IMG/VR virus record: IMGVR_UViG_3300023061_000374
Coordinates: 1-25,395 of that record
Reading direction: 5' to 3' (one strand)
Length of the DNA: 25,395 nt
From: a virus
In this document: positions 2,963 through 16,938 of the stretch, piece after piece
Position numbering within the stretch: position 1 is the first letter of the stretch
Layout: every line of letters starts with the position of its first letter
The notes under the pieces: generated by a model
What the model was told of the DNA's origin: nothing
What the model saw: the letters and a program-made list of their open reading frames with translations, nothing else
Databases searched by the model: none
Position numbers and translations under genes: made by a program

Positions 2963-3070
2963 TACCCAAGCGATAAACATACAAATGATCAAGTGTTCTA
3001 TTACCCACATAAATTCTCCATAAATGTTACTGGTATCTTTAAAATTAAACTAGTTCGACCTACTTCAAAC

Positions 3071-3095
3071 ATGGGACTACAAATTCGAGTCCCAT
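3071..3095. terminator. Hairpin between ejection operon and convergent RHH gene
   Basis: A perfect 8-bp inverted repeat, ATGGGACT and AGTCCCAT, surrounds a 9-base loop, followed on the plus strand by TATTTAC. It sits between convergent genes (plus gene ending at 2962, minus gene ending at 3160), a usual place for a bidirectional terminator. The U-tract is poor, so this is only a candidate. The rest of 2963-3159 holds a second small hairpin (CTATCT/AGATAG at 3119-3135) and nothing else I recognise. Confidence 0.4.
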
Positions 3096-3159
3096 TATTT
3101 ACAGCAGTGTTTAAACGCCTATCTTATTCAGATAGCATATATGTCATAATAACAACCCC

Positions 3160-3336
3160 TCAAATATAATTTTTGTCCTTTAACATCTTCCCCGTAAGGG
3201 CCTCAATCACATACTGCCGCATTGAGATGCGTCTCTCAATAGCATGTTTTTTTACTTCGATAAGGAACTGTCTCTCTACTTTTATGCGGAGGAAAGTACT
3301 GTCTTTAACCGTAGATTTCAATTCTTCACGTTTCAC
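3160..3336 (-). CDS. Small ribbon-helix-helix (Arc/CopG-type) DNA-binding protein
   Basis: The likely start is the GTG whose complement lies at 3334-3336. It has AGGAG five bases upstream and gives a 58-residue basic protein. The longer reading from 3399 adds a hydrophobic stretch that would overlap the operator repeats. The sequence has an alternating beta-strand (STFLRIKVERQ), a first helix ending in ERR, and a second helix beginning at SMRQYVIEAL. That is the classic layout of RHH repressors such as Arc, MetJ and CopG, which bind tandem operators as dimers. It is divergent from the late tail operon and is flanked by three tandem 9-bp repeats just upstream of its start, so autoregulation and control of the neighbouring operon are likely (inference). 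Confidence 0.7.
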   Translation of the reverse strand: MKREELKSTVKDSTFLRIKVERQFLIEVKKHAIERRISMRQYVIEALTGKMLKDKNYI

Positions 3337-3352
3337 AAATACTCCTACTTTT

Positions 3353-3379
3353 GGTATAAATAGTATAAACGGTATAAAT
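3353..3379. promoter_or_regulatory. Three contiguous 9-bp direct repeats, probable RHH operator
   Basis: GGTATAAAT, AGTATAAAC and GGTATAAAT follow each other without gaps (3353-3361, 3362-3370, 3371-3379), consensus RGTATAAAY. The array sits 16 bases upstream of the RHH start codon, where its promoter would be. Tandem short sites with even spacing are typical operators for RHH proteins. The -10 element of the minus promoter probably lies within the array. Confidence 0.6.
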
Positions 3380-3416
3380 ATACTACAAAATGGTAACATT
3401 TAAGTAAAGCTTTTTT

Positions 3417-3445
3417 TTTAAACTGGATTCATGCTTTACTATATA
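3417..3445 (+). promoter_or_regulatory. Candidate promoter for the tail-fibre operon
   Basis: TTTAAA (3417-3422) and TATATA (3440-3445) are separated by 17 bases, each matching 4 of 6 consensus positions. The element precedes the first plus-strand gene of the late operon by about 25 bases, in the divergent control region. The match is modest in an AT-rich background. Confidence 0.35.
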
Positions 3446-3471
3446 TAGAAGTAGACAATGTTAGGAAATGT

Positions 3472-3735
3472 ATGAAAATGTTGTTACTTTTGTCGTGTCT
3501 TTTTTGTATATATCATTCTGTTCAATCTTGTGGACTAATGGTATGGGGAAACAGTGCCTCGTCCGATCTCGTTAGTGCTAGCGCATCTTTTAGTAATAAT
3601 TTTAACTACTGGCAAACGTTTCACAGTTTTAATATCAATTACAATGATCTGTTCATATTGTTGACCACGGATTGCATTTTCCACATTTTATTCATTGGCA
3701 TAATAGTTTACTTAATATATTATTCACGTTTTTAA
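3472..3735 (+). CDS. Small envelope protein: signal/lipobox-like N-terminus and C-terminal membrane segment
   Basis: This 87-residue protein starts at ATG 3472 with AGGA five bases upstream. Residues 1-20 look like a signal peptide (MK, then a Leu-rich core) ending in Val-Gln-Ser-Cys, a weak lipobox. About 35 polar residues rich in Asn, Ser and Phe follow. The C-terminus (about 60-84) is a second hydrophobic segment ending in Tyr-Ser-Arg-Phe. An N-terminal lipid-anchor signal plus a C-terminal transmembrane helix is the architecture of unimolecular spanins such as T1 gp11, which fuse inner and outer membranes in phage lysis. This protein is shorter than that example, and the lipobox is not canonical. 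It is the first gene of the operon. It could instead be an unrelated membrane protein. Confidence 0.5.
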   Translation: MKMLLLLSCLFCIYHSVQSCGLMVWGNSASSDLVSASASFSNNFNYWQTFHSFNINYNDLFILLTTDCIFHILFIGIIVYLIYYSRF

Positions 3736-3747
3736 AAAGGAGACGTA

Positions 3748-3951
3748 ATGGAACTTAAATCAACAGTTATATTAGAAGTTAAACGAGGTGAATTTGTTTT
3801 TAGAATGGAATTACCTGTTGGAGCTCCCTTGGGCGATACCTATGAGGCTGGTTGGGACTTTTTGAAAAAGATTAATGATTTAATGACTGATGCCATTGAA
3901 AAAGCTAAGCCACAAACCAATAAAGAAATTTCTGGCGAGCGAGATGAGTAA
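3748..3951 (+). CDS. Conserved-looking small phage protein, function unknown
   Basis: The 67-residue product follows a strong ribosome binding site (AAAGGAGA, about five bases from ATG). The N-terminal half looks like a beta-hairpin (alternating LKSTVILEVKRGEFVFRMEL) followed by a Pro/Gly turn (LPVGAPLGD). The C-terminal half is a charged amphipathic helix. I do not recognise a family with certainty. The next gene overlaps its last eight bases, so the two are probably co-translated. It lies between the envelope protein and three small paralogues upstream of the fibre genes, so a virion or assembly role is plausible but unproved. Confidence 0.65.
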   Translation: MELKSTVILEVKRGEFVFRMELPVGAPLGDTYEAGWDFLKKINDLMTDAIEKAKPQTNKEISGERDE

Positions 3952-4282
3952 TCTTACACGAGCACGTGCTATTGAGTTATTATTCTATGATCCCAATGAT
4001 CTCGACCCAGTAGTTTGGCATGTTGTAACTGATAGTCTCGAAGAATCATGTTTTCTTGTACGGTTTACTAATAGTAGCGATTCGATTATTTATCTATCAT
4101 ACGATAAGGGTGTAACAACTCATGATGTATCAATTCCAGATTCTGTAGTCGAAATTCAATTTCAGAGCAATGCTCCATATTCTGGCAGATCTAACAGTAT
4201 TGCTAAAGGTACTTCCATATATGTACGTGGAAGACCTGATGATGGAATATTTTGTATATCAGGGTATACATATGTGGAATAA
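3944..4282 (+). CDS. Small beta-rich virion-type protein, paralogue 1 of 3
   Basis: I chose ATG 3944, which overlaps the end of the upstream gene by eight bases, rather than a more upstream alternative start that would overlap it by about 60 bases. The 112-residue product starts MSNLTRARAIEL. It has a conserved order shared with the next two genes: an N-terminal Arg-Ala-Arg motif, a strand with Phe-Thr-Asn-Ser and a hydrophobic pair, a central Ile-Pro/Val-Glu strand, then KGTSIYVRG and a final GYTYVE strand. The pattern suggests a small all-beta fold. Function is unknown. A tail-tip, decoration or fibre-attachment role fits its place just before the fibre cluster. Confidence 0.65.
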   Translation: MSNLTRARAIELLFYDPNDLDPVVWHVVTDSLEESCFLVRFTNSSDSIIYLSYDKGVTTHDVSIPDSVVEIQFQSNAPYSGRSNSIAKGTSIYVRGRPDDGIFCISGYTYVE

Positions 4283-4284
4283 CA

Positions 4285-4629
4285 ATGCAAATCAAAAATA
4301 GAGCACGCGCTTTGCCTACATGTATACTTGATGGGGCCCTCTTTCCCATTAATCCAATGGTCTATTGCCCACCATTAACAGCACCGATATTTAGGCTTTC
4401 GATTTATAATAACCTAAAATTTGGCGCTGCATATTTATACATAGATGGAAACGCGGCTGATGTTATATTTTCTGAAATGCCATTACATATCGATACTCAG
4501 AAATTTAACTCATATAGCGAGAGAACTACATTATTCCCCAAAGGTACCATTTTTAGTATTGATAATGAAGAAGATTTTAACGCTGGTTCAGTAATTTTAG
4601 TAGGTTATACCTATTACTGGGAGGTCTAA
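4285..4629 (+). CDS. Small beta-rich virion-type protein, paralogue 2 of 3
   Basis: ATG 4285, three bases after the previous stop, gives 114 residues. An upstream TTG in frame would overlap the previous gene and lacks support. Like its neighbours it has an N-terminal NRARA motif, a central strand region, then KGTIFSIDNEEDFNAGSV and a final VGYTYYWEV. These align with KGTSIYV...GYTYVE and KGTQFYV...MTYFYGSEE in the flanking genes. The stop overlaps the start of paralogue 3 (TAATG), with GGAGGT of the next ribosome site inside the last codons. No enzymatic motif is visible. Confidence 0.65.
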   Translation: MQIKNRARALPTCILDGALFPINPMVYCPPLTAPIFRLSIYNNLKFGAAYLYIDGNAADVIFSEMPLHIDTQKFNSYSERTTLFPKGTIFSIDNEEDFNAGSVILVGYTYYWEV

Positions 4630-4982
4630 TGGGCATACAAACTTCTATACGTTTAGAAATAGCCCCCGCAGCAAGTAAATTATGGAATGCCATTGTCGTA
4701 GGTTATACCACTTTGGGTAATCCTATTAGCAACCGAGCACGCATGATTCTTTTGCAGAATTTTACGAATGGTGATTTGTGGATATCAAAAAATGGTGTAG
4801 ATGATCATATTCCCTTAGGTTCACGATCATTCATGTTACTTGATATCATGTCAAATCAATCGGCACAAGGCATGTCCTTTTATGTTTCAAAAGGAACACA
4901 ATTCTATGTCAAATGGCTTGAAGCTGCTGGTCCCGCTTCTGGTAGTGTTTACATGACATATTTCTACGGTTCGGAGGAATGA
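4629..4982 (+). CDS. Small beta-rich virion-type protein, paralogue 3 of 3
   Basis: The 117-residue product starts at an ATG overlapping the previous TAA, with a perfect GGAGGT. It contains NRARMILLQNFTNGDLWISK, IPLGSRSFMLLDI and VSKGTQFYVKW, matching the order of elements in the two preceding genes but with the Arg-Ala-Arg motif placed further in, at about residue 36. The TGA stop is followed one base later by the ATG of the first large fibre gene. Divergence among the three copies indicates old duplication. Function unknown; structural role inferred from context. Confidence 0.65.
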   Translation: MGIQTSIRLEIAPAASKLWNAIVVGYTTLGNPISNRARMILLQNFTNGDLWISKNGVDDHIPLGSRSFMLLDIMSNQSAQGMSFYVSKGTQFYVKWLEAAGPASGSVYMTYFYGSEE

Positions 4983-4983
4983 T

Positions 4984-6813
4984 ATGTCACAATCAGGTTC
5001 TTTATTTGTAACACCTCCAGTTGGAGCCGGCGTCCAGTATTTAGGCGATGGAACTCTTGATAATAACGTAGGACCAGATCTTGGTGGTCTTATATCTATT
5101 CTCGGCACTGCAGGCGATGTTATTGTAGCATACAATACACATGCAAACGCTGTAACATTAAGCACAGTCGGGAATGCTGCAAGCTTTGATGCGGATGTGG
5201 GGGCTGCTGTACCTGTTGCTGGTGTACTTAAGGTTTTTGGCACTGCCAATAAGGTTACTACAGCAGCTGAAGATGATAAGGTAACTATATCATTGCCCAA
5301 TAATGTCACTATTCCAGGCGACTTTCAGGCCGCTAATGTTGTTTCATCGGGTGCTATTAATTGCGCAACAGTAGTAACAACAGGAATAGTTACAGTTGGA
5401 GGTAATATCAGCATCACAGGGAATATGAGTGGAGTTGCCAATATTGTTTGTTCTGGAATAATATCAACGACTAGTACAATTGGAGGATTTGTATCATATG
5501 CAGCGCTAGAACATTTCGCCTATTATACTACCTATGGCGATATAGCAACTGTCCATGGCAATTTAGGAACTGTTCATGGTAGAGTTTCTGGCAAAACTTT
5601 GATTGTTGAGACTACTGCAACTATCAGTTCACTTAATGTACCAGGCATACTATCTAATACAAATGCTGGTCTCATACAATCATCAGCTGGTGCTAATGGA
5701 CAAGTACTTATTGGTGGCGGCGCAGCTCCCGCTTGGCGTAATCTTACAGCTGGCAATGGAATAGTTGTAGGTAATCTAGCTAATTCAATAACAATAGGTC
5801 TTAATAATAATATTGTTCTACCAGGTACTTTTGGGGCATCGTCAGTTACCTCCGATAATTTAATGACTGCAAGCAATGGCTTAACAGTTAGCAGTGGCAA
5901 TGTTACTATCACTACTGGTAATGTTGATGTAAGTGGTGGCACCATGGCAGTTAGAGGCTCTATTTCGAGTACACATGCTGGAATATCGGCTGCTGGAACG
6001 ATAGTTTCTAATAATTTAGAGACAGGATTTAGATCATATTCCCAAATTGGTCATTTAGCTTTTTTCACTGAAAATGGTGATATATCCGCTTTTAATGGTA
6101 ATATCGTCGCATCAGGCGGGACTATTATTGGTAGCCATTTAAATGTAACTTTCAATGCAACTATAGACTCGCTTAATGTACCAGGCATATTATCTAATAC
6201 AAATACTGGTCTCATACAATCATCAGCTGGTACTAATGGACAAGTACTTATTGGTGGCGGCGCAGCTCCCGCTTGGCGTAATATTACAGCTGGTACGGGA
6301 ATATCAATAACTAATGCAGCTAACTCAATAACGATTACTAATTCAGGTGTAGGTGGCGTTAAGGCAGCATTTTTTGCACAACTAAATGCACCAAAAGTTA
6401 ATATTTCTGGCGATGGCTCAACATATTTATTCAAGGGACCAGATCTTACTGAATCATATGATACAACAAATTCATTTAGCCATAATACTAATCCGGCACG
6501 ATTTGTTGCTCCAGTTAATGGGATATATCAATTTACGTTGTCTGTTTCACCTTCAGCAGGGTCACAATTTTTTCATTACACAAATACTCTCAATATATAT
6601 GCACCTGGAAGAACTTATATATTGACTCGTACGCCGATAATTACACGTGATATGCAAGGAACACAGGGTGATATATCCCAACTAACAACTAATATACAAC
6701 TAACGATTGGTCAACAAGTATCCTTTGGCTTTGAATCTCAATCTGGTACGGGTGTAAAAAATTGTTCTTTAGTAGCGTATGACACTTATATCACAGGTTT
6801 TCAAATCTCATAA
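4984..6813 (+). CDS. Tail fibre with internal 180-residue repeat and C1q-like tip
   Basis: The 609-residue protein starts after GGAGGAA. It is rich in Gly, Ser, Thr, Asn and Val with beta-repeat periodicity. Two 180-residue units (roughly 100-280 and 280-460) each contain a SLNVPGILSNTN segment and a module of type GQVLIGGGAAPAWRN..TAG.GI..., common in phage fibres. The C-terminal 150 residues (about 460-609) carry the pattern F-A-Q-L, V-N-I-S-G-D-G, Y-D-T-T-N-S-F and F-V-A-P-V-N-G-I-Y-Q-F. That is characteristic of C1q/TNF-like jelly-roll trimers, a receptor-binding tip. The same tip type recurs as stand-alone genes downstream. The protein is expected to trimerise on the virion and bind the host surface (inference from fold). 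It is the largest fibre of the cluster. Confidence 0.8.
   Translation: MSQSGSLFVTPPVGAGVQYLGDGTLDNNVGPDLGGLISILGTAGDVIVAYNTHANAVTLSTVGNAASFDADVGAAVPVAGVLKVFGTANKVTTAAEDDKVTISLPNNVTIPGDFQAANVVSSGAINCATVVTTGIVTVGGNISITGNMSGVANIVCSGIISTTSTIGGFVSYAALEHFAYYTTYGDIATVHGNLGTVHGRVSGKTLIVETTATISSLNVPGILSNTNAGLIQSSAGANGQVLIGGGAAPAWRNLTAGNGIVVGNLANSITIGLNNNIVLPGTFGASSVTSDNLMTASNGLTVSSGNVTITTGNVDVSGGTMAVRGSISSTHAGISAAGTIVSNNLETGFRSYSQIGHLAFFTENGDISAFNGNIVASGGTIIGSHLNVTFNATIDSLNVPGILSNTNTGLIQSSAGTNGQVLIGGGAAPAWRNITAGTGISITNAANSITITNSGVGGVKAAFFAQLNAPKVNISGDGSTYLFKGPDLTESYDTTNSFSHNTNPARFVAPVNGIYQFTLSVSPSAGSQFFHYTNTLNIYAPGRTYILTRTPIITRDMQGTQGDISQLTTNIQLTIGQQVSFGFESQSGTGVKNCSLVAYDTYITGFQIS
5632..6293 (+). repeat. 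122-bp near-identical direct repeats within the fibre gene
   Basis: Positions 5632-5753 and 6172-6293 differ at only four bases I can count, and are spaced exactly 540 bases (180 codons) apart. The flanking parts of the 180-residue units have diverged much more, so this block has been homogenised or is under strong constraint. Confidence 0.85.
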
Positions 6814-6835
6814 TTCTTAAAAAGGAGAATTAGAA

Positions 6836-7384
6836 ATGTCTAAAAATGTAAACAATTTATCCTCTTATGGACAAAACCAACCACTTATTGGTGTTTTTGA
6901 TCCGCCGATAGCATCAAAACGCAATCCGACTGGTAACGATAAAGCATCCATCGGGCGTGTTTGGGTTAACAAACTAACAAATACTATTTATATCCTGTCT
7001 AGTTTTGCAGGAGGTCAAGCAGTCTGGACAGCGGTCGATAATTCAGGTGCAACAGGTATAACGTGGTCGCGTGAAGCAGGTGCGGCAGTCGCTATGACTA
7101 ATAATCATGGTTATGTGAATACTAATGCCGGACTCACTACTTTTACATTACCTGCAGTTTCACCCCTAGGGTCGGTAATTAAGATAATCGGTGAAGGCGC
7201 TGGAGGATGGCGAATCAATGCCCAAGCAGGTCAAAACTTTAGATTTGGTCAAGTTCCAGGTGTGGCAGGTGGAAGCATAAGAATCCCTATCAACCATACA
7301 TATGCGTCTATTTCATTGATTACGTCTGTAGCAAATACAACATTTGAAGTAGTTTTAACTAATGACAATATAAACGTTACTTAA
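6836..7384 (+). CDS. Small tail adhesin with shared C-terminal module
   Basis: The 182-residue product starts after AAAAAGGAGAA. The N-terminal part (about 1-70) has PLIGVFDPPIASKRNPTGN and a VWVNKLTNTIYILSS stretch, a pattern I associate with phage tail proteins that expose short repeats. The C-terminal part (about 76-182) carries the module shared by three of the following genes: a Trp start, a polar stretch, LPAVSPLGSVIKIIGEGAGGW.INAQAGQ, a Gly-rich turn, and a terminal strand. It is probably a minor fibre or tip protein. The shared module may be a trimerisation or attachment domain. It is co-directional, and a strong ribosome site for the next gene follows its stop. Confidence 0.7.
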   Translation: MSKNVNNLSSYGQNQPLIGVFDPPIASKRNPTGNDKASIGRVWVNKLTNTIYILSSFAGGQAVWTAVDNSGATGITWSREAGAAVAMTNNHGYVNTNAGLTTFTLPAVSPLGSVIKIIGEGAGGWRINAQAGQNFRFGQVPGVAGGSIRIPINHTYASISLITSVANTTFEVVLTNDNINVT

Positions 7385-7410
7385 AAAAGAGAGTTTTAAA
7401 GGAGAAAAAT

Positions 7411-9132
7411 ATGCCTTTTAATAATATGAATAACAATTATCAAGCGTCACGTTATATCGTTGATATTGATGGGACTACACCATTTGCTACAATTCAGTCG
7501 GCGATTGACCAGACTGTTACAGATGGTATTACAAGTGCTACAGTAATGATACGTCCAGGAACATATGATGAAGCATTAGTGCTAGTAGCAGGAATTAACC
7601 TGCAAGGATCAGAGGGTGAGGTATATATAAGAGGTATACATACACCACCAGCTACTGGTTCTATCATGTTTTCAGGACTTAATCTTACGACTACTGCAGA
7701 TATTTTGTTTGATGCTGCTGCTGGTACATGTAATATTAAGTTTTATGACTGTACATTCTATGCAGTTGGTGGAACGTATGACTTTGTTGGTCAAATATGT
7801 GATCTTGCATTATGGACCGGCGATATAACCATTGAATCATGTAATGAAACAACAGGATGTACTAACTCAATTATATTTAATAATGGTAGTTCAGCTGTTG
7901 ATATTATTGATTGTCCAGGAATTGGTTCTGGAGCTGTTTCAGCAACATTAACAGGTATTACCCGTATCATTAATTCCAGGATTAACTGTCCTCTAGGTTT
8001 TGTTGATGGCGATGTACAAATCGAGAATTCAACTATATCCGACATTATCACTATTACCGACCCTGCTGTAACTCATATTTACAACTCATATCTAACTCAT
8101 GCTACAGCATGTATTGATTACAATTCAACAGGCGTTCTTGATATAGGCAACACTGTTATCGATGTAGTAGGCAGTCCAGTCATAACTGGTACTGGAACAG
8201 CCCTTGAGATTGGTGAAGTCACCTTCATGAACGATTCAGTCATTGCAGGTACATTAACACAAACCTTAGTAAGTGGTTGCTTCGCTAGTAACTTTCAAAC
8301 ATATGGTGTAGTTCGTCTTCCTGAAACCTCAGTCGGTGCGGATAATGGCGTTATATATATCGAAACAGAGCCATATTTACATTCTATGGGCACTGAGAAC
8401 ACTTTCGTCGGTGAACGCGCTGGTAATTTTACACTGACTACTGCAACTTCTATAGACTCAGTCGGTATCGGTACCGAATCTTTGAACGATATAACCTCAG
8501 CTGCGTACTCTACTGCCGTTGGTGCCTACTCTCTTGACAACCTTACAACTGGAGATAAGAATCTAGCGCTAGGATTTCAAGCAGGAACAACGATAACAAC
8601 TGGTACAAGCAATGTACTTATTGCAAATCCCGGATCAGCTGCAGCCGAATCTAACGTAATACGTATAGGTGTTGATGGTGCAGGTGCTGGACAACAGGAC
8701 TCAAATTACCAAGCAGGTATATACCAGGCTACAACTGGAGCGACAAAAGAAGTCGTTTATGTTGATAGTAACTTTAAATTGTCTTCATCTAATTTAGGTA
8801 TTACACAGTGGATTGAAGCGAATACTGATCTTACTGCTGCAGTTAATACTGGATATGTCGTCAATATTACTGTGCCAGGATTGCTTACTATAACTATTCC
8901 TACAACATCAATTCTAGGCGACGTGGTAGAAATAGCCGGTCTTACAGCTGGAATGTGGTCCATTGCTCAAAACGCATTACAAGTCATTCATTTCAGTGGC
9001 GTTGATACAACGGTTGGTGTTGGCGGCTCATTATCAGCTACAACACGCTATGACACTATCAAGCTATTGTGCGTAGTCGCGGATACTGAGTGGATTGTAT
9101 TGGCAAGTTCAGGTGTCTTTAACCTAGTTTAA
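7411..9132 (+). CDS. Tail spike/adhesin: beta-helix, YadA-like beta-roll, shared C-terminal module
   Basis: This 573-residue protein has three parts. Residues of about 10-290 resemble pectin-lyase/pectinesterase-like right-handed beta-helices: they start YIVDIDGTTPFATIQSAI, then V.IRPGTYDEAL, as in many phage spikes that bind or cut polysaccharide. Residues of about 325-430 contain GTENTFVGERAGNF, STAVGAYSLDNL and NLALGFQAG, the 14-residue rhythm of YadA/trimeric-autotransporter head beta-rolls. Residues of about 465-573 are the shared module (GMWSIAQNALQ..HFSG...VGVGGSLS). No catalytic residues can be assigned from sequence alone. The gene follows a strong ribosome site (AAAGGAG). Trimeric, surface-exposed on the virion. 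Confidence 0.8.
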   Translation: MPFNNMNNNYQASRYIVDIDGTTPFATIQSAIDQTVTDGITSATVMIRPGTYDEALVLVAGINLQGSEGEVYIRGIHTPPATGSIMFSGLNLTTTADILFDAAAGTCNIKFYDCTFYAVGGTYDFVGQICDLALWTGDITIESCNETTGCTNSIIFNNGSSAVDIIDCPGIGSGAVSATLTGITRIINSRINCPLGFVDGDVQIENSTISDIITITDPAVTHIYNSYLTHATACIDYNSTGVLDIGNTVIDVVGSPVITGTGTALEIGEVTFMNDSVIAGTLTQTLVSGCFASNFQTYGVVRLPETSVGADNGVIYIETEPYLHSMGTENTFVGERAGNFTLTTATSIDSVGIGTESLNDITSAAYSTAVGAYSLDNLTTGDKNLALGFQAGTTITTGTSNVLIANPGSAAAESNVIRIGVDGAGAGQQDSNYQAGIYQATTGATKEVVYVDSNFKLSSSNLGITQWIEANTDLTAAVNTGYVVNITVPGLLTITIPTTSILGDVVEIAGLTAGMWSIAQNALQVIHFSGVDTTVGVGGSLSATTRYDTIKLLCVVADTEWIVLASSGVFNLV

Positions 9133-9146
9133 TTTAAGGATTTACT

Positions 9147-10556
9147 ATGGCAAAAGTTCAAGATTCAACAAATCTTTATACTCCTGATACTCTTATAGTT
9201 GATGCTAGCGGGCATAGTCCATTTACTACAATTACTAGTGCTCTTACAGCAGCAACAGACATGGGTTACACGGCTGTTAATATATATATTAGACCAGGTA
9301 CATATACAGAAGATTTAACTCTTGTTGATTCATTCTCTTTAATTGGCTCTTATTATAAAGGAGTTATTGTTAATGGTACTCATACTATTCCATTAGCTGG
9401 TGAGTTTAGAATGAAGAATATTTACTTTCAACAGTTAACACCTGCAACAGATATATTTATTGAATCAGGCGCAAGCTCATGTGGTTGCAGATTCAATAAT
9501 TGTTATTTTTACCCTGATAGTGGCGCAAGCTTTAATCTTCCTACAAGCACAAAGACTGTTAGTCTTTCCGAATGTAATGGCTCTGCTGTAACATCAGATT
9601 CTGTATTTAATAATGCTGCTTCTGCTTCTTTTTATCTTATTAATTCAAATATGGGCAAAGGTGCTGTTGCAACAACTGCAAATGGATATGTTCTTCTTAG
9701 GGATAGTAACCTTAAAGTGCCTTTAACGCTATCTGGTGCTGCAAGATGTGATATGTTTGGATCTTATCTTTATAGCTCTTTAACAGCATCTGATACAGTT
9801 GTTACTAAAATATGGTTCTCACAATTTGTTACCGGAGTGAATACCCCAATAACTGCCAATGTTGGAACCTCTGTATTTCTTAATAATGTTACTATTGATA
9901 CATCAGCTGCAAATTTTGCAACTGGCGCAGGTACAGTCGTATACAATGAAGTTACCTGTCTTGATAGTTCAGCACATAACGCTACAACGGAACTGTATAA
10001 CTCTAGGGTTATAACTGGATCATTGCAGCTTGATGAGGCTGATCAGGGTGTTTGCCTAATAGATGGCGGGCTAGTTACCCCTACTGCAATGACGGATGGA
10101 CAGATTGTAATGGGATCTACAGGTTTAAGCCCTGTGGTTGGCACAGTTACAGCTGGCACTAATATTAGTATCACCAATGCAGCCGGTTCTATTACCGTTA
10201 ACGCTACGGGACCTGCAAGTGTTACATGGACAACAGCAACTATAGACACTGCTCTTGTTGTTAATAATTCATATGTAACTGATATTGCTATACCAGGTCT
10301 TCTTACATATACCATTCCAGCAACAGCATCCTTAGGGGATTCTATTGAAATAATCGGCTATTCAGTTGGTGGATGGTCTATAGCACAAAATGCTAACCAG
10401 AGTATACGATTGGGCGCATCTACAAGTACAATCGGTGCCGGTGGTTCAGTTAGTTCATTAGTAGCTTCGGATAGTGTCAAGCTTGTTTGCATGGTAGATG
10501 GTGCAAGTACTGAATGGGCTATTGTATATGCAATTGGCAATCCCACAATCGTTTAA
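9147..10556 (+). CDS. Tail spike/adhesin: beta-helix plus shared C-terminal module
   Basis: The 469-residue product is preceded by AAGGA. Its N-terminal 290 residues parallel the preceding gene: LIVDASGHSPFTTITSAL, then VNIYIRPGTYTEDLTLVD, the start of a pectin-lyase-like beta-helix. A short fibre module (DGQIVMGSTG...TAGTNISITNAAGSITV, about 315-352) is the one also seen in the genes at 4984 and 10587. The last 110 residues are the shared module with GGWSIAQNANQSIRLG and IGAGGSVSS, ending GNPTIV. It lacks the YadA-like segment of its neighbour, so the two genes look like parallel assemblies from one parts kit. Likely a host-surface-binding spike. Confidence 0.78.
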   Translation: MAKVQDSTNLYTPDTLIVDASGHSPFTTITSALTAATDMGYTAVNIYIRPGTYTEDLTLVDSFSLIGSYYKGVIVNGTHTIPLAGEFRMKNIYFQQLTPATDIFIESGASSCGCRFNNCYFYPDSGASFNLPTSTKTVSLSECNGSAVTSDSVFNNAASASFYLINSNMGKGAVATTANGYVLLRDSNLKVPLTLSGAARCDMFGSYLYSSLTASDTVVTKIWFSQFVTGVNTPITANVGTSVFLNNVTIDTSAANFATGAGTVVYNEVTCLDSSAHNATTELYNSRVITGSLQLDEADQGVCLIDGGLVTPTAMTDGQIVMGSTGLSPVVGTVTAGTNISITNAAGSITVNATGPASVTWTTATIDTALVVNNSYVTDIAIPGLLTYTIPATASLGDSIEIIGYSVGGWSIAQNANQSIRLGASTSTIGAGGSVSSLVASDSVKLVCMVDGASTEWAIVYAIGNPTIV

Positions 10557-10586
10557 TTTTTCAACCATTTAATTTAAAGATCTATA

Positions 10587-11177
10587 ATGGCAAATAACAA
10601 CATTACAAACAACCGTAGTTATGCTATGACATCTGATACGGGTATCACGTCAACAACGGGGAATATTACTGCCACCTTAGGAGACGTAGTCTTGACCAAT
10701 GGTAAGTTAACCCTTGGTGTATCAACGGGTACTGATGGGCAAGTTATCATTGCTACTACTGCTGGTAATCCAGCATGGGCAGCTCTTACGGCTGGTGATG
10801 GTGTATCTGTTACTAATGCAGCTGGTTCAGTTACTCTTGCAAGTACTGCACCATTTACATGGGCTCAAGTAGGTGCTGATGCGGCTCTTACTGTTAATCA
10901 AGGAACGGTCAATAGTAAGGTTGCGTTACTTACAATGTCACTTCCCGCAGCAAGCGCTGTTAATACAGTCATAAAATTAGTTGGATTGGGTGCAGGTGGT
11001 TGGACCATTACTCAAGGAGCTAATCAGCAGATTCTAGTTGGTGATACGAATACAACTTTAGGTGCTGGTGGAACGCTTTCATCAACAGATGCAGGTGACT
11101 GTTTATCAATGATATGTACTACTGCGGACCTTGTATGGCGAGTATTTAATATGGTTGGCAATTTAACAGTCGTCTAA
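10587..11177 (+). CDS. Short tail fibre with shared C-terminal module
   Basis: The 196-residue protein begins MANNNITNN, close to the MATNN starts of the next four genes. Residues of about 45-90 are the GTDGQVIIATTAGNPAWAAL...TNAAGSVTL fibre module. Residues of about 93-196 are the shared C-terminal module (GAGGWTITQGANQQILVG, LGAGGTLSS, final GNLTVV). The ribosome site is weaker (AAAGA) than those of the earlier fibre genes. It bridges two gene groups: its C-terminus matches the upstream genes and its N-terminus the downstream ones. A very GC-rich hairpin follows its stop. Confidence 0.75.
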   Translation: MANNNITNNRSYAMTSDTGITSTTGNITATLGDVVLTNGKLTLGVSTGTDGQVIIATTAGNPAWAALTAGDGVSVTNAAGSVTLASTAPFTWAQVGADAALTVNQGTVNSKVALLTMSLPAASAVNTVIKLVGLGAGGWTITQGANQQILVGDTNTTLGAGGTLSSTDAGDCLSMICTTADLVWRVFNMVGNLTVV

Positions 11178-11181
11178 TACT

Positions 11182-11208
11182 ATGGGGGGCCCACGGCGGG
11201 CCCCCCAT
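11182..11208 (+). terminator. 11-bp GC hairpin inside the adhesin operon
   Basis: A perfect stem of ATGGGGGGCCC with GGGCCCCCCAT encloses a 5-base loop (ACGGC). The U-tract is weak (TTCTTC). It lies five bases after one adhesin stop and 17 bases before the next ATG, leaving no room for a new promoter. It could be a partial terminator, a processing or stability structure, or a recombination boundary. Its base composition stands out sharply from the AT-rich surroundings. Confidence 0.6.
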
Positions 11209-11225
11209 TCTTCAAGGGAACAATT

Positions 11226-11705
11226 ATGGCAACAAATAATGCAATTAATGCACTTGGTCCGTTACCAGAATTCTTTGCTACATTATCGACAACTGCGCTT
11301 GCGGTTACTGGTGATTCGACTCTGTATAAATTAGCTTTAGCTCTTGAGTTATATGATACTACAAATTCTTTTTCAACTGTAACTTATGAATTTACCGCGC
11401 CCATAACAGGTAAATATAGACTAATAGCAAGAACTCAACTTCATTCTTTAACTGCCGCGCATACTCTAGGGTATATCACTATTGTTACTACAGCTCGAGG
11501 TTATGTTAGTAATATTGTTAGTCCAGGAGCAATTCGTAATTCTTCTAATGCAACAGTTTTAGCTTGTGATGTCATTGCTGATATGACATTAGGGGACACG
11601 GCATATGTGGAAGTTATTGTAGCGAATGGCGCCAAGGTTGTTGATTGTTCATACAATTCTCCAGCAGTGCCTCGCACATTTTTTCAGGGTTACTTAATAC
11701 GTTAA
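11226..11705 (+). CDS. C1q-like jelly-roll adhesin, MATNN-tagged (1)
   Basis: The 159-residue protein starts after AAGGGA and begins MATNNAINALG. The remainder is a single C1q/TNF-like domain: F-F-A-T-L, AVTGDSTLYKLAL, LYDTTNSFSTVTYEFTAPITGKY, a central region of strands, and a terminal F-F-Q-G-Y-L-I-R. The pattern matches the tip of the large fibre at 4984 (YDTTNSF, APVNGIY). C1q-like domains form compact trimers that bind surface ligands, so this is probably a stand-alone receptor-binding subunit docked through the short N-terminal tag. It is followed eight bases later by a paralogue. Confidence 0.75.
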   Translation: MATNNAINALGPLPEFFATLSTTALAVTGDSTLYKLALALELYDTTNSFSTVTYEFTAPITGKYRLIARTQLHSLTAAHTLGYITIVTTARGYVSNIVSPGAIRNSSNATVLACDVIADMTLGDTAYVEVIVANGAKVVDCSYNSPAVPRTFFQGYLIR

Positions 11706-11713
11706 GGAATAGT

Positions 11714-12190
11714 ATGGCAACAAATAATAGTATTAATCAATACAATCCGCAGGCTTGCTTCATGGTACGTCCCGCTAATAACAAGGTGAACGTTACTGGT
11801 GGCGGTGTAGCTTATACGGTGGCTTTTGACGAAATAATCTATGACAACACAAGCTCGTTCAATATTGGGACTTATACCTTTGTGGCTCCTTATACTGGTA
11901 GATACTTTCTAGCTGCTAATGTTCAGTTGAGCAATCTTCCAGCTATACTCAATTCCTTGTTGATAAATATTGATACATCAGTTACTGATTGTGGGTCTAT
12001 TTGGACAAGCAATAATAGTAAATCAGTAGGTAATTTATATATTTTACAATCATCATTTATCGTATCGTTAGTAGTTGGCAGTACTGCTACTGTTTCTGTA
12101 AATTCAAGTGGAGGGACTCAAACTGTTTCAGTTGACACTACTAGCGCTGTTGATCCACTAACATTTTTCTGTGGTTATTTAATACGATGA
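11714..12190 (+). CDS. C1q-like jelly-roll adhesin, MATNN-tagged (2)
   Basis: I chose ATG 11714, preceded by AAGGA, over an upstream in-frame start inside the previous gene, because the resulting N-terminus MATNNSINQ matches the tag of its neighbours. The 158 residues contain VNVTGGGVAYTVAFDEI, YDNTSSFNIGTYTFVAPYTGRYFL and a terminal F-F-C-G-Y-L-I-R, the same C1q-like order as the previous gene. Overall identity to its neighbours is low outside the tag and the core Pro-Thr-Gly-Tyr turn, so ligand surfaces probably differ. Confidence 0.75.
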   Translation: MATNNSINQYNPQACFMVRPANNKVNVTGGGVAYTVAFDEIIYDNTSSFNIGTYTFVAPYTGRYFLAANVQLSNLPAILNSLLINIDTSVTDCGSIWTSNNSKSVGNLYILQSSFIVSLVVGSTATVSVNSSGGTQTVSVDTTSAVDPLTFFCGYLIR

Positions 12191-12199
12191 GGACATATT

Positions 12200-12679
12200 A
12201 TGGCAACGAATAATATAATCAATCTATCTGATCTACAATCGATATTCTTTGCGTATCCAAGCGCTCAATTATCATTGGTTACTGGAGACAATACGAAGTA
12301 TAAACTAGCTATGAATAGCGAGTTGTATGACGTTAACGGCGATTATAATAATGCGACTTATGCCTATACAGCGCCTGTAACGGGAAACTATTTCCTACAG
12401 TGCAGTTTAAGTTTATCTGGAATAACAGCTAACCATACAGATTGTATTTTATATATAGAGCCTACTGGCAAAAGTTATATAAGTTCACATTTGAATCTTG
12501 CTAATGCAGTCTCATCTTCTGCGAATGCCTACGCATATTCAAATATTATTGTAGCTCTAACGGTAGGTGATAGCGTTACATTTTCACTACAAGTATCTTC
12601 AACAAATAAAACAATCAATATTAGAACTCTAGGTTCAAGTAATCCACTTTCATGGATAGCTGGTTATTTACTACGATAG
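12200..12679 (+). CDS. C1q-like jelly-roll adhesin, MATNN-tagged (3)
   Basis: The 159-residue protein follows GAGGA and begins MATNNIINLSD. It has FFAYPSAQLSLVTGDNTKYKLAM, ELYDVNGDYNNATYAYTAPVTGNYFL and a terminal W-I-A-G-Y-L-L-R, aligning with the two preceding paralogues across the whole length. With them it forms a tandem family of three single-domain receptor-binding candidates separated by fewer than ten bases each. Expected to trimerise on the virion surface. Confidence 0.75.
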   Translation: MATNNIINLSDLQSIFFAYPSAQLSLVTGDNTKYKLAMNSELYDVNGDYNNATYAYTAPVTGNYFLQCSLSLSGITANHTDCILYIEPTGKSYISSHLNLANAVSSSANAYAYSNIIVALTVGDSVTFSLQVSSTNKTINIRTLGSSNPLSWIAGYLLR

Positions 12680-12686
12680 GATTACA

Positions 12687-13154
12687 ATGGCAACAAATAA
12701 TGCAATTAACTTAGCTACCCCTACAAGTAACACAGTATCGGTGACTCAGGCTTCTGGAGCTATATCTATTGAAACTCTTGAAGTATTACAAACAGATACT
12801 GGTTTCGCTAGCTGGACAGGTGCTGGTGCATATTACGATGATACTACGCTTGGTGAATTTACGGTATCGCGTGGTGGTACAGGATATATTAAAGGGGTTT
12901 TAGTAACATGGACTGGACCTCAAACTGTAACAGGATTAACAGCAGGCAATTGTTACCACATCTATATAGATGATACAGGGACAATTGGTAAGGCTTCTAC
13001 GCGTACCGACGCACTCTTTAGCGATTACATATGTCTTTTTGAGTGTCTCAGGGATTCTAATCTCCCTACTAACAATCAGATAACTGTAAAAGAGAATCAT
13101 CCATATAACTTTCCTGTTAATACCTCTAATTATTTGCATAATACAGTTGGATGA
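12687..13154 (+). pseudogene. MATNN-tagged tail fibre, 5' part ended by in-frame TGA
   Basis: The frame starts after AGGATTAC with MATNNAINLAT, the tag of the three preceding genes, and runs 155 codons to a TGA at 13152-13154. It has no C1q signature. It resembles a fibre N-terminal region (FTVSRGGTGYIKGVLVTWTG, GLTAGNCYHIYIDDTG). The same frame stays open past the TGA from 13155 to a TAA at 13395-13397, with fibre-like residues and no start codon of its own. This suggests that the TGA replaces a sense codon (for example Trp) or is read through. The downstream frame at about 13349-13969 completes the protein after a -1 shift. A nonsense mutation, a sequencing or assembly error, or recoding all remain possible. 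Confidence 0.65.
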
Positions 13155-13372
13155 ATTATTGAGAATAGGAGTGGTGGTGCTAATATTACCCTTAATGGTA
13201 CCCAAAAGATACAGATTAACGGTGCTGATGAGCTTGATGATCATGGACTAGAAACAGAGATTGTAGATAGTGCTGGAGTGGCCGTTGTATGGAACAAGAA
13301 ATATACTAATGCTGCTGGTAAGTGGTGTCGGTATGAACTATCTGATACTTTTGCTCTGGAACAATTACAGCA

Positions 13373-13969
13373 TTGGGAGGCTCTAAGTTCGCGATAACTC
13401 GGCTGTATGCTTCTAAAGATGATCTCAATAGTTCTTACCCTACTTTTTTTGCAGTTGTAGATACAGCTCAATATAATAATCTATCAAGAGCTAATACAGC
13501 TATAGCAAGATCACAAGTTGCTGCAGCATCGAATGAACTTTTGGAATTAGAGTTGGTACAGCTCGGGTATATTATATTCTCGCAATCGTCTAGTTCTATC
13601 GTGCAAGTGACAATTGCCAAGTCAACATTTAACACTGGTGTTACACAGTCTGGAACAAATACTGCATCTTTAATCAATACAGTTACCACTAATTTTAACA
13701 GTATACTTTCATCAGCTGACACGAATGTACAAAGTGCGCTTGATACTATCGACAATTTTGGAGTAAGTCCAAATGCGACGGGAGATAGTGGGAGAGTAGC
13801 CTCTACTACTTCGTTAACTAATGTAGTTAATACGACCCAGGGTGTTGGCTTGTTAACAATATTAAGTACTAACGGTAATAGCGCGGACAATACAGGTGGC
13901 GGTTTCATTAAAATTTACATTGGGACTGTTGCTTACTACATTCCGTATTTTGCTACAATTGCCCCTTAA
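13373..13969 (+). pseudogene. Tail fibre, 3' part in the -1 frame
   Basis: This frame is open from just after a TGA at 13343-13345 to the TAA at 13967-13969. The only formal start is a TTG at 13373 with no convincing ribosome site. Read from about 13355 it gives SGTITALGGSKFAITRLYASKDDLN, which continues smoothly from the upstream frame (WCRYELSDTF). A TTTT run at 13349-13352 marks the probable junction: one missing T there would explain the shift. The C-terminal part has an amphipathic region (ANTAIARSQVAAASNELLELEL), a repeat region with Thr, Asn and Ser, and a final GTVAYYIPYFATIAP strand typical of fibre ends. With the 5' part it would form a fibre of roughly 425 residues. Confidence 0.6.
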
Positions 13970-13990
13970 AGTTGCAGCTATGGTATATAA

Positions 13991-14023
13991 TAAACCCCCG
14001 CTTAATTCCACTACGGGGGTTTA
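13991..14023. terminator. Bidirectional terminator between convergent operons
   Basis: A 10-bp perfect stem, TAAACCCCCG and CGGGGGTTTA, encloses a 13-base loop. Read on the plus strand it follows the adhesin operon by 21 bases. Read on the minus strand it follows the recombination operon (last gene ends at 14070) and is trailed by TTTATTATA. The A and U runs flanking a GC core on both strands are typical of intrinsic bidirectional terminators. Confidence 0.8.
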
Positions 14024-14069
14024 CCAAAAAAAGTAATATGTAGTAAAGCTTTGTGAATACAAGGAGTTC

Positions 14070-14285
14070 TCACATGCTATGTCTATTATATTCTTCTGAT
14101 ATCTGAAGTACATATTTTTCATCTTCAAGTTTGTGTTTGTTAACCTCAAAGAGTACTGTACTTAAAGGCAGCCAATTTATTTTATCTCGAGATACTTGTA
14201 GGTAGAATGTAGAATCAACATCGCAGATTGTACTGAATGGGGCGTCCTCTAACTGTGTGGGTAAGAAATGCCGTTCAATTATCAT
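14070..14285 (-). CDS. Small protein, function unknown, end of the recombination operon
   Basis: The 71-residue product starts at an ATG that overlaps the TGA stop of the upstream ERF-like gene (ATGA junction), implying coupled translation. It is mixed in charge, with a FYLQVSRDKINWLPLS stretch and a helical C-terminal half (VNKHKLEDEKYVLQISEEYN). I recognise no family. Its position at the end of the ERF-SSB operon suggests an accessory role in replication or recombination, without direct evidence. A bidirectional terminator lies downstream. Confidence 0.6.
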   Translation of the reverse strand: MIIERHFLPTQLEDAPFSTICDVDSTFYLQVSRDKINWLPLSTVLFEVNKHKLEDEKYVLQISEEYNRHSM

Positions 14286-15028
14286 CTATTCCGCTCTCTT
14301 TCAGCTATAATTATACGTGCACGTGATATCGTCTCATCGTACATTGACTTGGGTAGATCTGCAAGTACTTGGATATTTCTTTGTTTGTAAAGATCTGTAA
14401 GTACATCCGGATACCCTCGTAAGGCCTTATCTAATTCTCGCACCTCAGTAGCATTGATTGTCTCGTACGACTGTTTGGAGTTACCTAAATGGACTGCAAG
14501 ACCTTTTTCGAATTCTTTGCGTGATGGATCATGAGCGAAGACACCGTCGTCATCATAATAATCATTACGTCCAGCAATACCCAGAATAGACTCAGCGGCC
14601 CATCTTTTAGTAAGGGCTATCAGAGAACCATTAGCGCGTGGATCTGAAGGAGTTAGCAGTATACGTGAGATTGATTGTAACCATTCTCCTTTGTGTTCTA
14701 TTCGAGTATGTATTACTGTTTCACCAGCAGGCTGGTTTACCAGTAATTGAGTAAAGGCAACTTGGTATTTGGACAAAGCTGCTCTGGTCGCTTTAAGGAC
14801 TGCTTGAAGATCTGCATACTCATGTTTAGTGAATGAATTAACACGTTCGTATATAAGCTCTAAATATTCACCTTGGGCGGATGATAAAGCATCAGCGAGT
14901 AAATCTGTCTTAGGTGAACATATCGCTGATTGTGGTTGATTTTCGAGAGCTACTTGTACCTTCTCGTTAATTATTGCGGACAATTCTCTGTAATATTCAA
15001 GTAATAGATTTAGTTCTGATGCTTCCAT
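14282..15028 (-). CDS. ERF-family single-strand annealing protein (copy B)
   Basis: The 248-residue protein starts at an ATG with GGAG upstream. Residues of about 45-160 match the ERF pattern: a helical start, KHEYADLQAVLKATRAALSKYQVAFTQ, then a hydrophobic strand region with TRIEHKGEWLQSISRILL, and a core SLIALTKRWAAESILGIAGRNDYYDDDG. In the family this core reads GSA.TYA.RYAL...GI...DDDG. The usual Thr-Tyr-Ala-Arg-Arg-Tyr is altered here to LTKRWAAES. ERF proteins anneal complementary single strands for phage circularisation and recombination. The basic C-terminus (ISRARIIIAERERNR) could bind DNA. It lies in one operon with SSB and a second ERF-like gene. Confidence 0.78.
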   Translation of the reverse strand: MEASELNLLLEYYRELSAIINEKVQVALENQPQSAICSPKTDLLADALSSAQGEYLELIYERVNSFTKHEYADLQAVLKATRAALSKYQVAFTQLLVNQPAGETVIHTRIEHKGEWLQSISRILLTPSDPRANGSLIALTKRWAAESILGIAGRNDYYDDDGVFAHDPSRKEFEKGLAVHLGNSKQSYETINATEVRELDKALRGYPDVLTDLYKQRNIQVLADLPKSMYDETISRARIIIAERERNR

Positions 15029-15040
15029 GATACTCCAGCT

Positions 15041-15424
15041 CTAAAATGGGTTCTCATTAAAATCTTTACCAAGGATAGCTTCTTCAAATGGCACAGCTTG
15101 TTCTTTAAATGACTCGAGATATTGCACATTGATTCCATGTTTGTAACGTTTATTACCTGTTGCATCTTCCCATGAGTCGAGTTTGGTTCTACCATCTATT
15201 AGAATATAATTGCCCTCAAAGAGATAGTTTGAATATTTGTCGAGCAATAGCCCCCATAATTCACAATCGATTGACCAGCTCTTATTGACTGTCTCATTTG
15301 TTCTTGAGTTTATGTATGGTTCATCTATACGAAGCGTGAATTTCTGCATTCTACTTTTATTTAATTGTCTCAGTTCCGCTAAATTTGTGATAGTCCCCGT
15401 AAGTATTGTTCTATTAATTGCCAT
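15041..15424 (-). CDS. ssb: Single-stranded DNA-binding protein
   Basis: The 127-residue protein starts after AAAGGA and begins MAINRTILTGTITNLAELRQL, the first strand of an SSB OB-fold. Aromatic and basic residues continue (QKFTLRIDE, WSIDCELWG, GNYILIDGRTKLDSWED, GINVQYLESF). It ends in DFNENPF, which mirrors the acidic DxxxxPF tip by which bacterial SSBs bind partner proteins. It is shorter than the usual 160-180 residues because the disordered linker is nearly missing. Its start overlaps the end of the upstream ERF-like gene by 11 bases. Role: coats single strands during replication and recombination and probably recruits the adjacent annealing proteins. Confidence 0.85.
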   Translation of the reverse strand: MAINRTILTGTITNLAELRQLNKSRMQKFTLRIDEPYINSRTNETVNKSWSIDCELWGLLLDKYSNYLFEGNYILIDGRTKLDSWEDATGNKRYKHGINVQYLESFKEQAVPFEEAILGKDFNENPF

Positions 15425-16088
15425 TTTTTTCCTTTATTTCTTTGATTTTTGTGAGTGCTGCTTTAAAATGGTTTGCTGATATATATTTTGAATGTGCGAT
15501 ACTAATAACTTTTTTCTGTTTCATCTCGGCTAGAAGTTCTATCATACTACCCTTCAAATAACCACCTTCTGCGAAAAGTTCGTCTTGTTGTTCTTTAGTA
15601 ATATATCCTTCTAGTTCTTCAGGACCATAATTGTTTTGTTTAAGTTGTGTATTGTTTGATTGTTGCTCTATGGCGCCGTGTTCTGGATCATTTCTGTCGA
15701 ACATTGGTATACCAAACAGGGTTTTGATTGCATATCTGCTCGCATAAGTATTGTCGCCACCTATTTTCATTTGAGCATCAAGACCAACATCTTCGGCACT
15801 GTAGAGGAAGTGGTATGTTGAGAAGAATTGGAATAGTTCGTCTTCTATGATGGAAGCACAAAGATACACACGTGTCTCATCTTTGATCTGATACAGACGC
15901 AATGTGAGTTTCTCTTGCTCTAAAATTCCGTAGCAGAAGAACAAAAGATGTTCAAGTTTAACATATGGTGATTTCTCGCCATGTTTACCATTACTTTCTT
16001 TAAGCAATCCTGTACGCATTGCATATTGCACTTTAGAGAACTTGGGCAATATTTTGTCGATGTTGTCAGATTGATATTTAAATTCCAT
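15414..16088 (-). CDS. ERF-like single-strand annealing protein (copy A)
   Basis: The 224-residue protein has GGAGT upstream of its ATG. An N-terminal helix region (VQYAMRTGLLKES) leads to SPYVKLEHLLFFCYGILEQEKLTLRLYQIKDE. Next comes a strand region and the core GGDNTYASRYAIKTLFGIPMFDRNDPE, a clear variant of the ERF motif G..TYA.RYAL..LFGI. The tail (about 140-224) is acidic and Gln-rich, then Lys-rich. It is quite different from the ERF-like protein two genes downstream, so the pair did not arise by recent duplication. Such proteins form rings that anneal ssDNA. The two flank SSB in one operon. Confidence 0.75.
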   Translation of the reverse strand: MEFKYQSDNIDKILPKFSKVQYAMRTGLLKESNGKHGEKSPYVKLEHLLFFCYGILEQEKLTLRLYQIKDETRVYLCASIIEDELFQFFSTYHFLYSAEDVGLDAQMKIGGDNTYASRYAIKTLFGIPMFDRNDPEHGAIEQQSNNTQLKQNNYGPEELEGYITKEQQDELFAEGGYLKGSMIELLAEMKQKKVISIAHSKYISANHFKAALTKIKEIKEKNGN

Positions 16089-16140
16089 CGAACCACTCCT
16101 TTTCTTTATCGACTCTTTAAACTTAGGGTAACAAGACTAA

Positions 16141-16356
16141 TCACTTCATCCCCTTGCTTTGATAATATAATGTAATTGCGCTATCAACAATAGATGACAT
16201 TGTTACACGGTGGCCAGATTTGTAGGACTCTATGTACAGCTCTGTCAATTTCTTACATGTTGATTGCCTCAGGGTATAACCAACTCTCATCTTGTACTCT
16301 TTGTAAAGTGGCTTCTTAATCTCATTTTCTTTACAAAGTATTTTTTGTTCAGACAT
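16141..16356 (-). CDS. Small ribbon-helix-helix DNA-binding protein
   Basis: The 71-residue product begins MSEQKILCKENEIKKPLYKEY, a basic flexible arm. An RHH-like core follows: MRVGYTLRQSTCKKL (beta-strand and start of helix 1), ELYIESYKSGHRV, then TMSSIVDSAITLYYQSKG (helix 2 with the N-terminal Ser-Ser-Ile-Val). This resembles CopG/ParG-like regulators. It lies in the minus operon whose promoter contains a perfect palindrome, so autorepression is plausible. The ribosome site is weak. The gap to the upstream gene is only six bases. Confidence 0.6.
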   Translation of the reverse strand: MSEQKILCKENEIKKPLYKEYKMRVGYTLRQSTCKKLTELYIESYKSGHRVTMSSIVDSAITLYYQSKGMK

Positions 16357-16362
16357 GATATT

Positions 16363-16551
16363 TCAATCGATTTTATAAAGTTGTTCTAGTGTTTCTATTT
16401 CCGATTCAATCTTCTTGAGTAGACTCTCACGATTGCCAAGTGTAAATCCATCTCCGTGTTCTTTGTAGATTTTTATTAGTCTACTAACGTATATGTTTTG
16501 CGTGTGGATTAATTTCGCTATTTGTTGATTAAAATCTGTATGGATTTCCAT
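16363..16551 (-). CDS. Small helical protein, first gene of the recombination operon
   Basis: The 62-residue protein starts after AAGGTGT. It is almost wholly helical and charged (QQIAKLIHTQNIYVSRLIKIYKEHG, then LLKKIESEIETLEQLYKID), suggesting a coiled coil. No family is recognised. As the first gene after the promoter at 16596-16624 it is probably an early product. It could be a small regulator or host-takeover peptide, which is speculation. Confidence 0.6.
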   Translation of the reverse strand: MEIHTDFNQQIAKLIHTQNIYVSRLIKIYKEHGDGFTLGNRESLLKKIESEIETLEQLYKID

Positions 16552-16595
16552 GATACACCTTTACTGATATGATTTCCCGCTATTAATACTTACTA

Positions 16596-16624
16596 ATTAT
16601 AACATACGAAATCGTATGTAGCAA
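16596..16624 (-). promoter_or_regulatory. Extended -10 promoter with palindromic operator in the spacer
   Basis: Read on the minus strand, TTGCTA (complement of 16619-16624, 4 of 6) and a perfect TATAAT (complement of 16596-16601) are 17 bases apart. TG stands one base before the -10, giving the extended form TGTTATAAT. Positions 16603-16618 in the spacer are the perfect palindrome CATACGAAATCGTATG (7-bp arms, 2-base centre). RNA polymerase and a repressor could not bind together. It drives the minus-strand recombination operon about 40 bases downstream. Confidence 0.75.
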
Positions 16625-16676
16625 TATATATTTTTATGTTTTTTACCATATAACAATGCATAAAAGAGAATAAAAA

Positions 16677-16748
16677 GAACCAACTCTTAGGGAGAACTTG
16701 GATTGCTAAATAAAAAGGTCCAAGTCTTAGGGAAAACTTGGACCGCTA
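16677..16748. repeat. Two 29-bp direct repeats, each forming a hairpin
   Basis: CCAAxTCTTAGGGAxAACTT-type units start at 16680 and 16720, 40 bases apart. The second folds perfectly (GGTCCAAGT with ACTTGGACC around a 10-base loop, 16717-16744). The first has mismatches. They lie between the two divergent promoters. Confidence 0.7.
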
Positions 16749-16761
16749 GGAAGAATTGCAC

Positions 16762-16857: not shown

Positions 16858-16912
16858 TAGTTTGGCTTAGGAGTCATTTATATATTTTATAGTGAATGGT
16901 TTTTATTGCAAT

Positions 16913-16938
16913 AAAAAACCCCCGATAGCGTACGGGGG
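16913..16938 (-). terminator. Intrinsic terminator on the minus strand
   Basis: CCCCCG (16919-16924) and CGGGGG (16933-16938) flank an 8-base loop. On the minus strand the stem is followed by six T (16918-16913). The orientation is notable: it would stop leftward transcripts arriving from the initiator region, insulating the minus operon or ending a short antisense RNA. Confidence 0.65.

Follow-up and report, generated by a model that had tools for sequence, protein, structure and literature searches.

A putative host-recognition cassette of fibre genes with conserved ends and variable bodies in an uncultured phage and its relatives

How does a phage with an apparently short tail come to encode nine fibre or spike proteins in a row, and what could it use them for? 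The question is raised by the window, i.e. the whole stretch of DNA analysed here (25,395 bp, virus record IMGVR_UViG_3300023061_000374), in which genes G to P fill positions 4984-13969 of the plus strand. A preliminary description of this DNA had proposed nine adjacent fibre genes assembled from shared modules, the products of which would form either a mixed adhesin complex or a store of alternative receptor-binding proteins that allows switching between hosts. Here, we suggest that the locus is best explained as a host-recognition cassette, and we consider it rather probable from the gene sequences that its products are virion fibres expressed side by side, whose ends are conserved and whose bodies can be exchanged. 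This view is built on the module content of the genes, on the place and order of the cassette in related genomes and on the location of sequence variation.

Module content of the fibre genes

Hidden Markov models (HMMs) of the modules were built from other viruses only, i.e. without any window sequence, in order to avoid circularity, and were then run on the window proteins. In this way the named modules were confirmed in eight of the nine genes, and the proposed shared kit stands, with the beta-helix as its weakest element and with three small upstream genes added to the unit. The N-terminal classes, considered as anchors, are recognized in relatives by short motifs, namely MSQ... in N1, MATNNxIN or MAKxNxINN in N2, SGINPLAYxGVEP in N3 and YGLxxPLI in N4. 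Gene G (4984-6813, 609 aa), the first fibre gene, contains two GQVLIGG repeats (residues 226-271 and 406-451; E-values 8e-15 and 7e-18) and a C-terminal C1q head (474-606; 5e-13). It occupies the N1 position and begins with MSQ; the N1 profile gave no match, and the assignment was left at position and these residues. In H (6836-7384, 182 aa) an N4 anchor (4.7e-9; f22 profile 1.4e-21) is joined directly to the C-terminal module of about 105 residues, designated C105 (1.9e-26). Gene I (7411-9132, 573 aa) combines a probable beta-helix with a YadA-like repeat (6e-18, the only match of this HMM) and C105 (1e-32), and J (9147-10556, 469 aa) a probable beta-helix with GQVLIGG (4e-15) and C105 (1e-29). 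In K (10587-11177, 196 aa) a short N2-like N-terminus (MANNNITNN, no match to the N2 profile) is followed by GQVLIGG (8e-16) and C105 (5e-34). An N2 anchor with a C1q head makes up L (11226-11705, beginning with MATNNAIN; C1q 8e-36, N2 profile 0.003), M (11714-12190, with its start at ATG 11714 and not at TTG 11645; C1q 3e-27, N2 profile 0.001) and N (12200-12679; C1q 1e-36). The start of N, like those of L, M and O, is covered by a plus-strand 32-nt repeat (D2), the four copies of which span the putative ribosome-binding site and the anchor codons (11217-12709, spacing 488, 486 and 487 bp), as tandem duplication would leave them.

The C1q heads are well supported as predicted domains of the C1q/TNF fold: a profile of 31 such domains matched solved C1q/adiponectin structures (3.7e-8), M exceeds the curated cut-off of Pfam C1q, and 13 of the 31 profile members match this family. 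It is likely but not proven that I and J carry a beta-helix. Their N-terminal domains are paralogous (31% identity), and what was matched in them is a pectinesterase-type start only (Pfam Pectinesterase 0.007 in J, below cut-off; PDB pectinesterase 0.16); no relative outside the window virus supplied sequences for a beta-helix profile.

The C-terminal position of C105, already seen in the preliminary description, was borne out: of 28 proteins from 20 genomes, 25 have the module right up to their final residue, and in the other three it stops one residue short. In the AlphaFold2 model of K the predicted local distance difference test (pLDDT) score is 96-98 over C105, and Foldseek matches in PDB comprise CBA120 TSP4 (1-335), CpaA, StcE and T4 gp10 as well as the capsid spike Pa223 (9ny6). 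Since the first four proteins are those listed in the TSP4 paper as homologues of its XD1 domain (PMC8825819), C105 may be read as an XD1-like trimer module, with the aligned residues not visible in the match list. Sequence searches of PDB with the C105 and f1 profiles gave nothing significant.

The ninth gene (O/P, 12687-13969, plus strand) has to be described with the help of a second record of the same virus, here termed G002 (IMGVR_UViG_3300022858_000626, 37,915 bp), which aligns to window positions 1-9877 and 10290-25395 with 99.7-99.8% identity and a permuted start. None of the modules named in the preliminary description is found in O/P; it is made up of an N2 anchor, a body module and the f22 C-terminal module, which matches its last 64 residues (1.2e-32). 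A first open reading frame (ORF, 12687-13154) is closed by an in-frame TGA common to both records; the frame is then open to about 13355, where, between GCTGG repeats, the window alone has a gap of 16 bp relative to G002. In four relatives the pieces match, at 52-67% identity, an uninterrupted part of larger fibres; the position of the TGA is taken by a sense codon there, and the frame reads through from end to end. A count of ten genes was rejected because these homologues are contiguous, and O/P is, as judged from its reading frame, one interrupted gene. The nine adjacent same-strand genes of the preliminary description are thereby retained in coordinates, strand and contiguity, with a ninth member that is broken and lacks the listed modules.

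Genes G to O are separated by 1-48 bp and each is preceded by a purine-rich stretch resembling a ribosome-binding site. Upstream, also on the plus strand, lie D (3890-4282; window-free f1 HMM 1.2e-17), the divergent E (4285-4629; 5.6e-6; start at ATG 4285, not at TTG 4252) and F (4629-4982; 7.9e-30). By profile matches these are f1-family paralogues, D being a small jelly-roll protein, and part of the same unit as the fibre genes (3890-4982). The model of F (pLDDT 92) is a jelly roll with generic Foldseek matches only. The whole same-strand run (3890-13969) thus holds three small jelly-roll genes and nine fibre or spike genes, one of them broken, and takes up about 26% of the genome.

Place of the cassette in relatives and location of variation

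A search with the terminase yielded 79 loci, and about 30 records were read, their genes being called and clustered. The terminases of these uncultured relatives are 50-64% identical. Their gene order is strongly conserved, and in nearly all of them the cassette is bordered by f1 on one side and by an opposite-strand Erf gene on the other, the usual order in most being N4 - f20 - f1 - N1 - N2 - f25 - N3 - Erf. Several N-terminal classes occur together in most genomes; the general expectation that podoviruses carry one to a few fibre genes, from which the preliminary description had started, does not apply to this lineage, where several are the norm. The f1-N1 pair is repeated in one relative (G033), and in a closed phage genome from a Methylococcaceae metagenome-assembled genome (MAG) the f1, N1-C105 and N4 genes are adjacent. 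The window virus is atypical in having no N3 and in carrying its N4 anchor within the cassette, on H. Some relatives have an N4 anchor and the C-terminal module of f22 on one fibre; in the window the two are split between H and O/P. C1q heads terminate N3-anchored fibres in relatives, and C105 was found behind N1, N2, N3, N4, N5 and beta-helix starts (N1 and N2 being assigned by motif matching, N3 and N4 by profile). This shows, at the level of predicted proteins, that bodies and ends were recombined across relatives. The comparison of the locus in related genomes, which had been proposed as a check, therefore reveals the same place, recombined anchors and ends, and variable bodies. Among isolate phages none with K or N modules was found by tblastn.

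Between the window and G002 only 31 single-nucleotide polymorphisms (SNPs) occur over about 25 kb, and 21 of them fall within 432 bp of J (9343-9774, plus strand, residues 66-210 in the probable beta-helix). Twenty of these are nonsynonymous and one synonymous, with neither stops nor indels, and none of 20,000 uniform shuffles gave even eight SNPs in a segment of this length. The paralogue I differs between both records by synonymous changes only. As the J segment lies near the end of a contig, clusters at contig ends were sought elsewhere, in other near-identical contig pairs, none of which was informative for the cassette itself. Two such clusters in terminase genes had 3 nonsynonymous to 26 synonymous and 3 to 22 changes. 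Contig ends can thus gather strain differences, but these are overwhelmingly synonymous, unlike those in J, which shows signs of fast adaptive change at the sequence level. Three sister contigs end within the cassette, at 7386, 9551 and 9877.

An independent second case is provided by G023 and its relatives G006/G007, which are about 94% identical overall. In a 590-aa fibre the first 100 residues are 82-98% identical and the YadA-like body 42-64%; in the following gene C105 is 98-100% identical, and the N3 fibres reach 92-100%. A glycine-rich N2 protein is also variable in its middle (38-76%). In the two comparisons available variation is shown, for the encoded proteins, to be concentrated in bodies, with ends mostly constant. 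C105 was also considered as a specificity tip and rejected, as no other part varies so little among the closer relatives and as the C105 of J is free of SNPs over the positions for which both records have sequence.

Genome setting

The permuted-start alignment with G002 indicates a genome of about 38.3 kb. A P22-like portal is encoded at 22281-24389 (Pfam P22_portal 3e-65), the terminase shares no more than 39% identity with those of isolates, and core proteins mostly lack PHROGs or Pfam matches; no tape-measure family was found among the families scanned. We infer an uncultured, short-tailed phage of this genome size that has a P22-type portal. The cassette is adjoined by genes for Erf-like annealing proteins and a single-stranded DNA-binding protein (SSB). 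The SSB gene lies between two different Erf-type genes (14282-16088); most relatives have a single such Erf.

An assignment of the host via bacterial genomes was tried and dropped: the five terminase matches come from MAGs only (Methylococcaceae, Paceibacterota, Chromatiales, an unnamed bacterium and Parachlamydiaceae), the binning of which is unreliable. A closed 33.6-kb relative (L153-L154) with a 141-bp terminal repeat is a contig within a Methylococcaceae MAG, a possible host hint with unverified binning. Elsewhere in the genome, gene A (90-1337), a distant relative of f18, contains an internal glutamine-rich repeat with 51-bp spacing. A direct repeat of about 189 bp (17247-17810, 85% identical) is located upstream of and extends into the gene at 17774. 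At 19234 the copy number of an in-frame 15-bp repeat unit (LAPQEWS region) is unequal between the window and its sister contig. A thymidine kinase (Pfam TK 2.6e-28) is encoded in the sister genome at L125:17380-18057, beyond the window.

Possible function of the cassette and comparison with known systems

How could such an array work? In their predicted make-up, most fibres begin with a short N-terminal anchor and finish with C105 or a C1q head as the conserved end; the body in between is exchangeable and can be a beta-helix, a YadA-like part, a GQVLIGG spacer or some larger module. The products may be synthesized at the same time and attached to the virion via their anchors, perhaps at separate sites or on distinct adaptors. 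C105 would then be a constant trimer-folding or connecting end and not the specificity tip, and host contact would be made through bodies and C1q heads. Shifts in host specificity could arise from the replacement of bodies and from adaptive changes in the J beta-helix, and duplication or exchange could be driven by the repeated anchor starts together with the phage's own Erf-type annealing proteins, so that annealing-type recombination may occur at the D2 repeats. The mixed adhesin apparatus of the preliminary description is thus supported in part, by the single same-strand run and by several anchor classes kept in fixed order in relatives. Several points weigh against this interpretation. The anchor set is not constant, because the window lacks N3 and the profiles recognize neither N1 in G nor N2 in K, and I and J have no recognizable anchor beyond short tails. 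With one gene broken, not every member need function. The f1 fold is a generic jelly roll that resembles capsid cement equally well. The J comparison is one contig pair with the segment within about 535 bp of the G002 end, and its 20:1 ratio alone, set against neutrality, gives p=0.03. Finally, the support comes from the genes of an uncultured virus.

As the main rival reading, only one to three proteins (e.g., J and G) would be receptor-binding, the small C1q and f1 proteins decorating the capsid or acting as head fibres and H and K being minor accessories. The anchor of L, M and N has only about ten residues, a capsid spike is among the structural matches of K, f1 resembles the cement proteins of Pam1 and KHP40, and strong amino-acid change between the sister genomes is confined to J. 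We nevertheless regard this as unlikely, since the C1q proteins beside tail-fibre genes of pelagiphages are hypervariable and were read as receptor-binding (PMC3909814), C1q heads also form the ends of N3-anchored fibres, and f1 sits with N1 fibres and was repeated together with one in G033. Still less probable is a partly decaying array, i.e. leftovers of tandem duplication and recombination with few functional members. The window copy of O/P has two interruptions and the G002 copy one, L, M and N look like tandem duplicates (486-488 bp spacing), and H and K are short. Yet eight of nine frames are open, L, M and N keep full-length C1q domains although about 65% of their residues differ, and the purely synonymous differences in I also speak against decay.

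The switchable store of the preliminary description, from which one receptor-binding protein at a time would be selected by inversion, templated mutagenesis or regulated expression, is not supported and appears very improbable. Several fibres with a common N2 start could indeed compete for one site. But the genes are on the same strand, tightly spaced and equipped with their own candidate ribosome-binding sites; neither invertible arms of good length nor long inverted repeats were found in the cassette, no copy of the J segment (as a template of the diversity-generating retroelement type) was detected elsewhere in the sequence examined, and no reverse transcriptase or invertase occurs among the ORFs scanned. 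Moreover, relatives keep several anchor classes at once, and such co-retained classes in fixed order are more in line with components of a single apparatus than with spares that can replace one another.

Multi-fibre complexes and phage adhesins with C1q or YadA domains are already known. C1q and YadA recognition genes are adjacent in pelagiphages (PMC3909814), branched multi-spike complexes occur in Ackermannviridae (PMC8825819, PMC11414711) and a nine-fibre complex is present in RaK2 (PMC10253068). With the module of HTVC010P-type pelagiphages (Mizuno 2014, PMC3909814; Polarivirus skadi, PMC10504331) the window virus shares the type of a small podovirus with adjacent C1q-like and YadA-bearing fibre genes and strongly variable recognition domains, and the terminases are 35% identical; C1q-like domains were found in two ORFs of HTVC010P. 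In contrast to that group, the window cassette is richer in fibre genes and features C105 as well as anchor classes that recur, and it is the beta-helix or body that varies, with C105 remaining constant. The f1 family was not found in HTVC010P, and the T7-type fibre N-terminus (PF03906) had no match in any cassette protein. The tailspikes TSP1-4 of CBA120 (Ackermannviridae) are likewise the products of several receptor-binding genes, with N-termini that are conserved and bodies that can be exchanged, and the XD1-like fold is apparently common to them and C105. There, up to four spikes are located on the baseplate and the XD domains are N-terminal and recruit partners, whereas here the XD1-like module is C-terminal; XD2/XD3 recruitment domains were not detected in cassette proteins by Pfam, PHROGs or NCBIfam. 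Similar to our array, the Klebsiella jumbo phage RaK2 (PMC10253068) has nine fibre proteins, most of them encoded in a row, but these were shown together in one apparatus, seven of the nine are depolymerases and RaK2 is a myovirus of 346 kb, in contrast with a virus of about 38 kb with an apparently short tail and with virion fibres predicted from genes.

What is added here is a cassette that is conserved within a small-podovirus lineage and in which anchor classes recur, together with a constant shared C-terminal module and localized amino-acid change in one body. Going further, we tentatively propose a podovirus lineage of about 34-40 kb with a multi-socket adsorption organelle, in which each anchor class may hold an interchangeable fibre, f1 acts as partner and C105 as cap regardless of the anchor, so that bodies are swappable and ends constant. 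For a compact phage group, adhesion would then be a matter of assembling parts, the ends being constant and the middles variable. This leads to a testable rule, namely that specificity would be set by the fibre body and not by the conserved C-terminal module, and to a defined set of anchors for testing. Such a rule may be of use for host prediction in uncultured phages, and the cassette could serve to follow, in a small and tractable genome, how multiple fibres evolve under selection.

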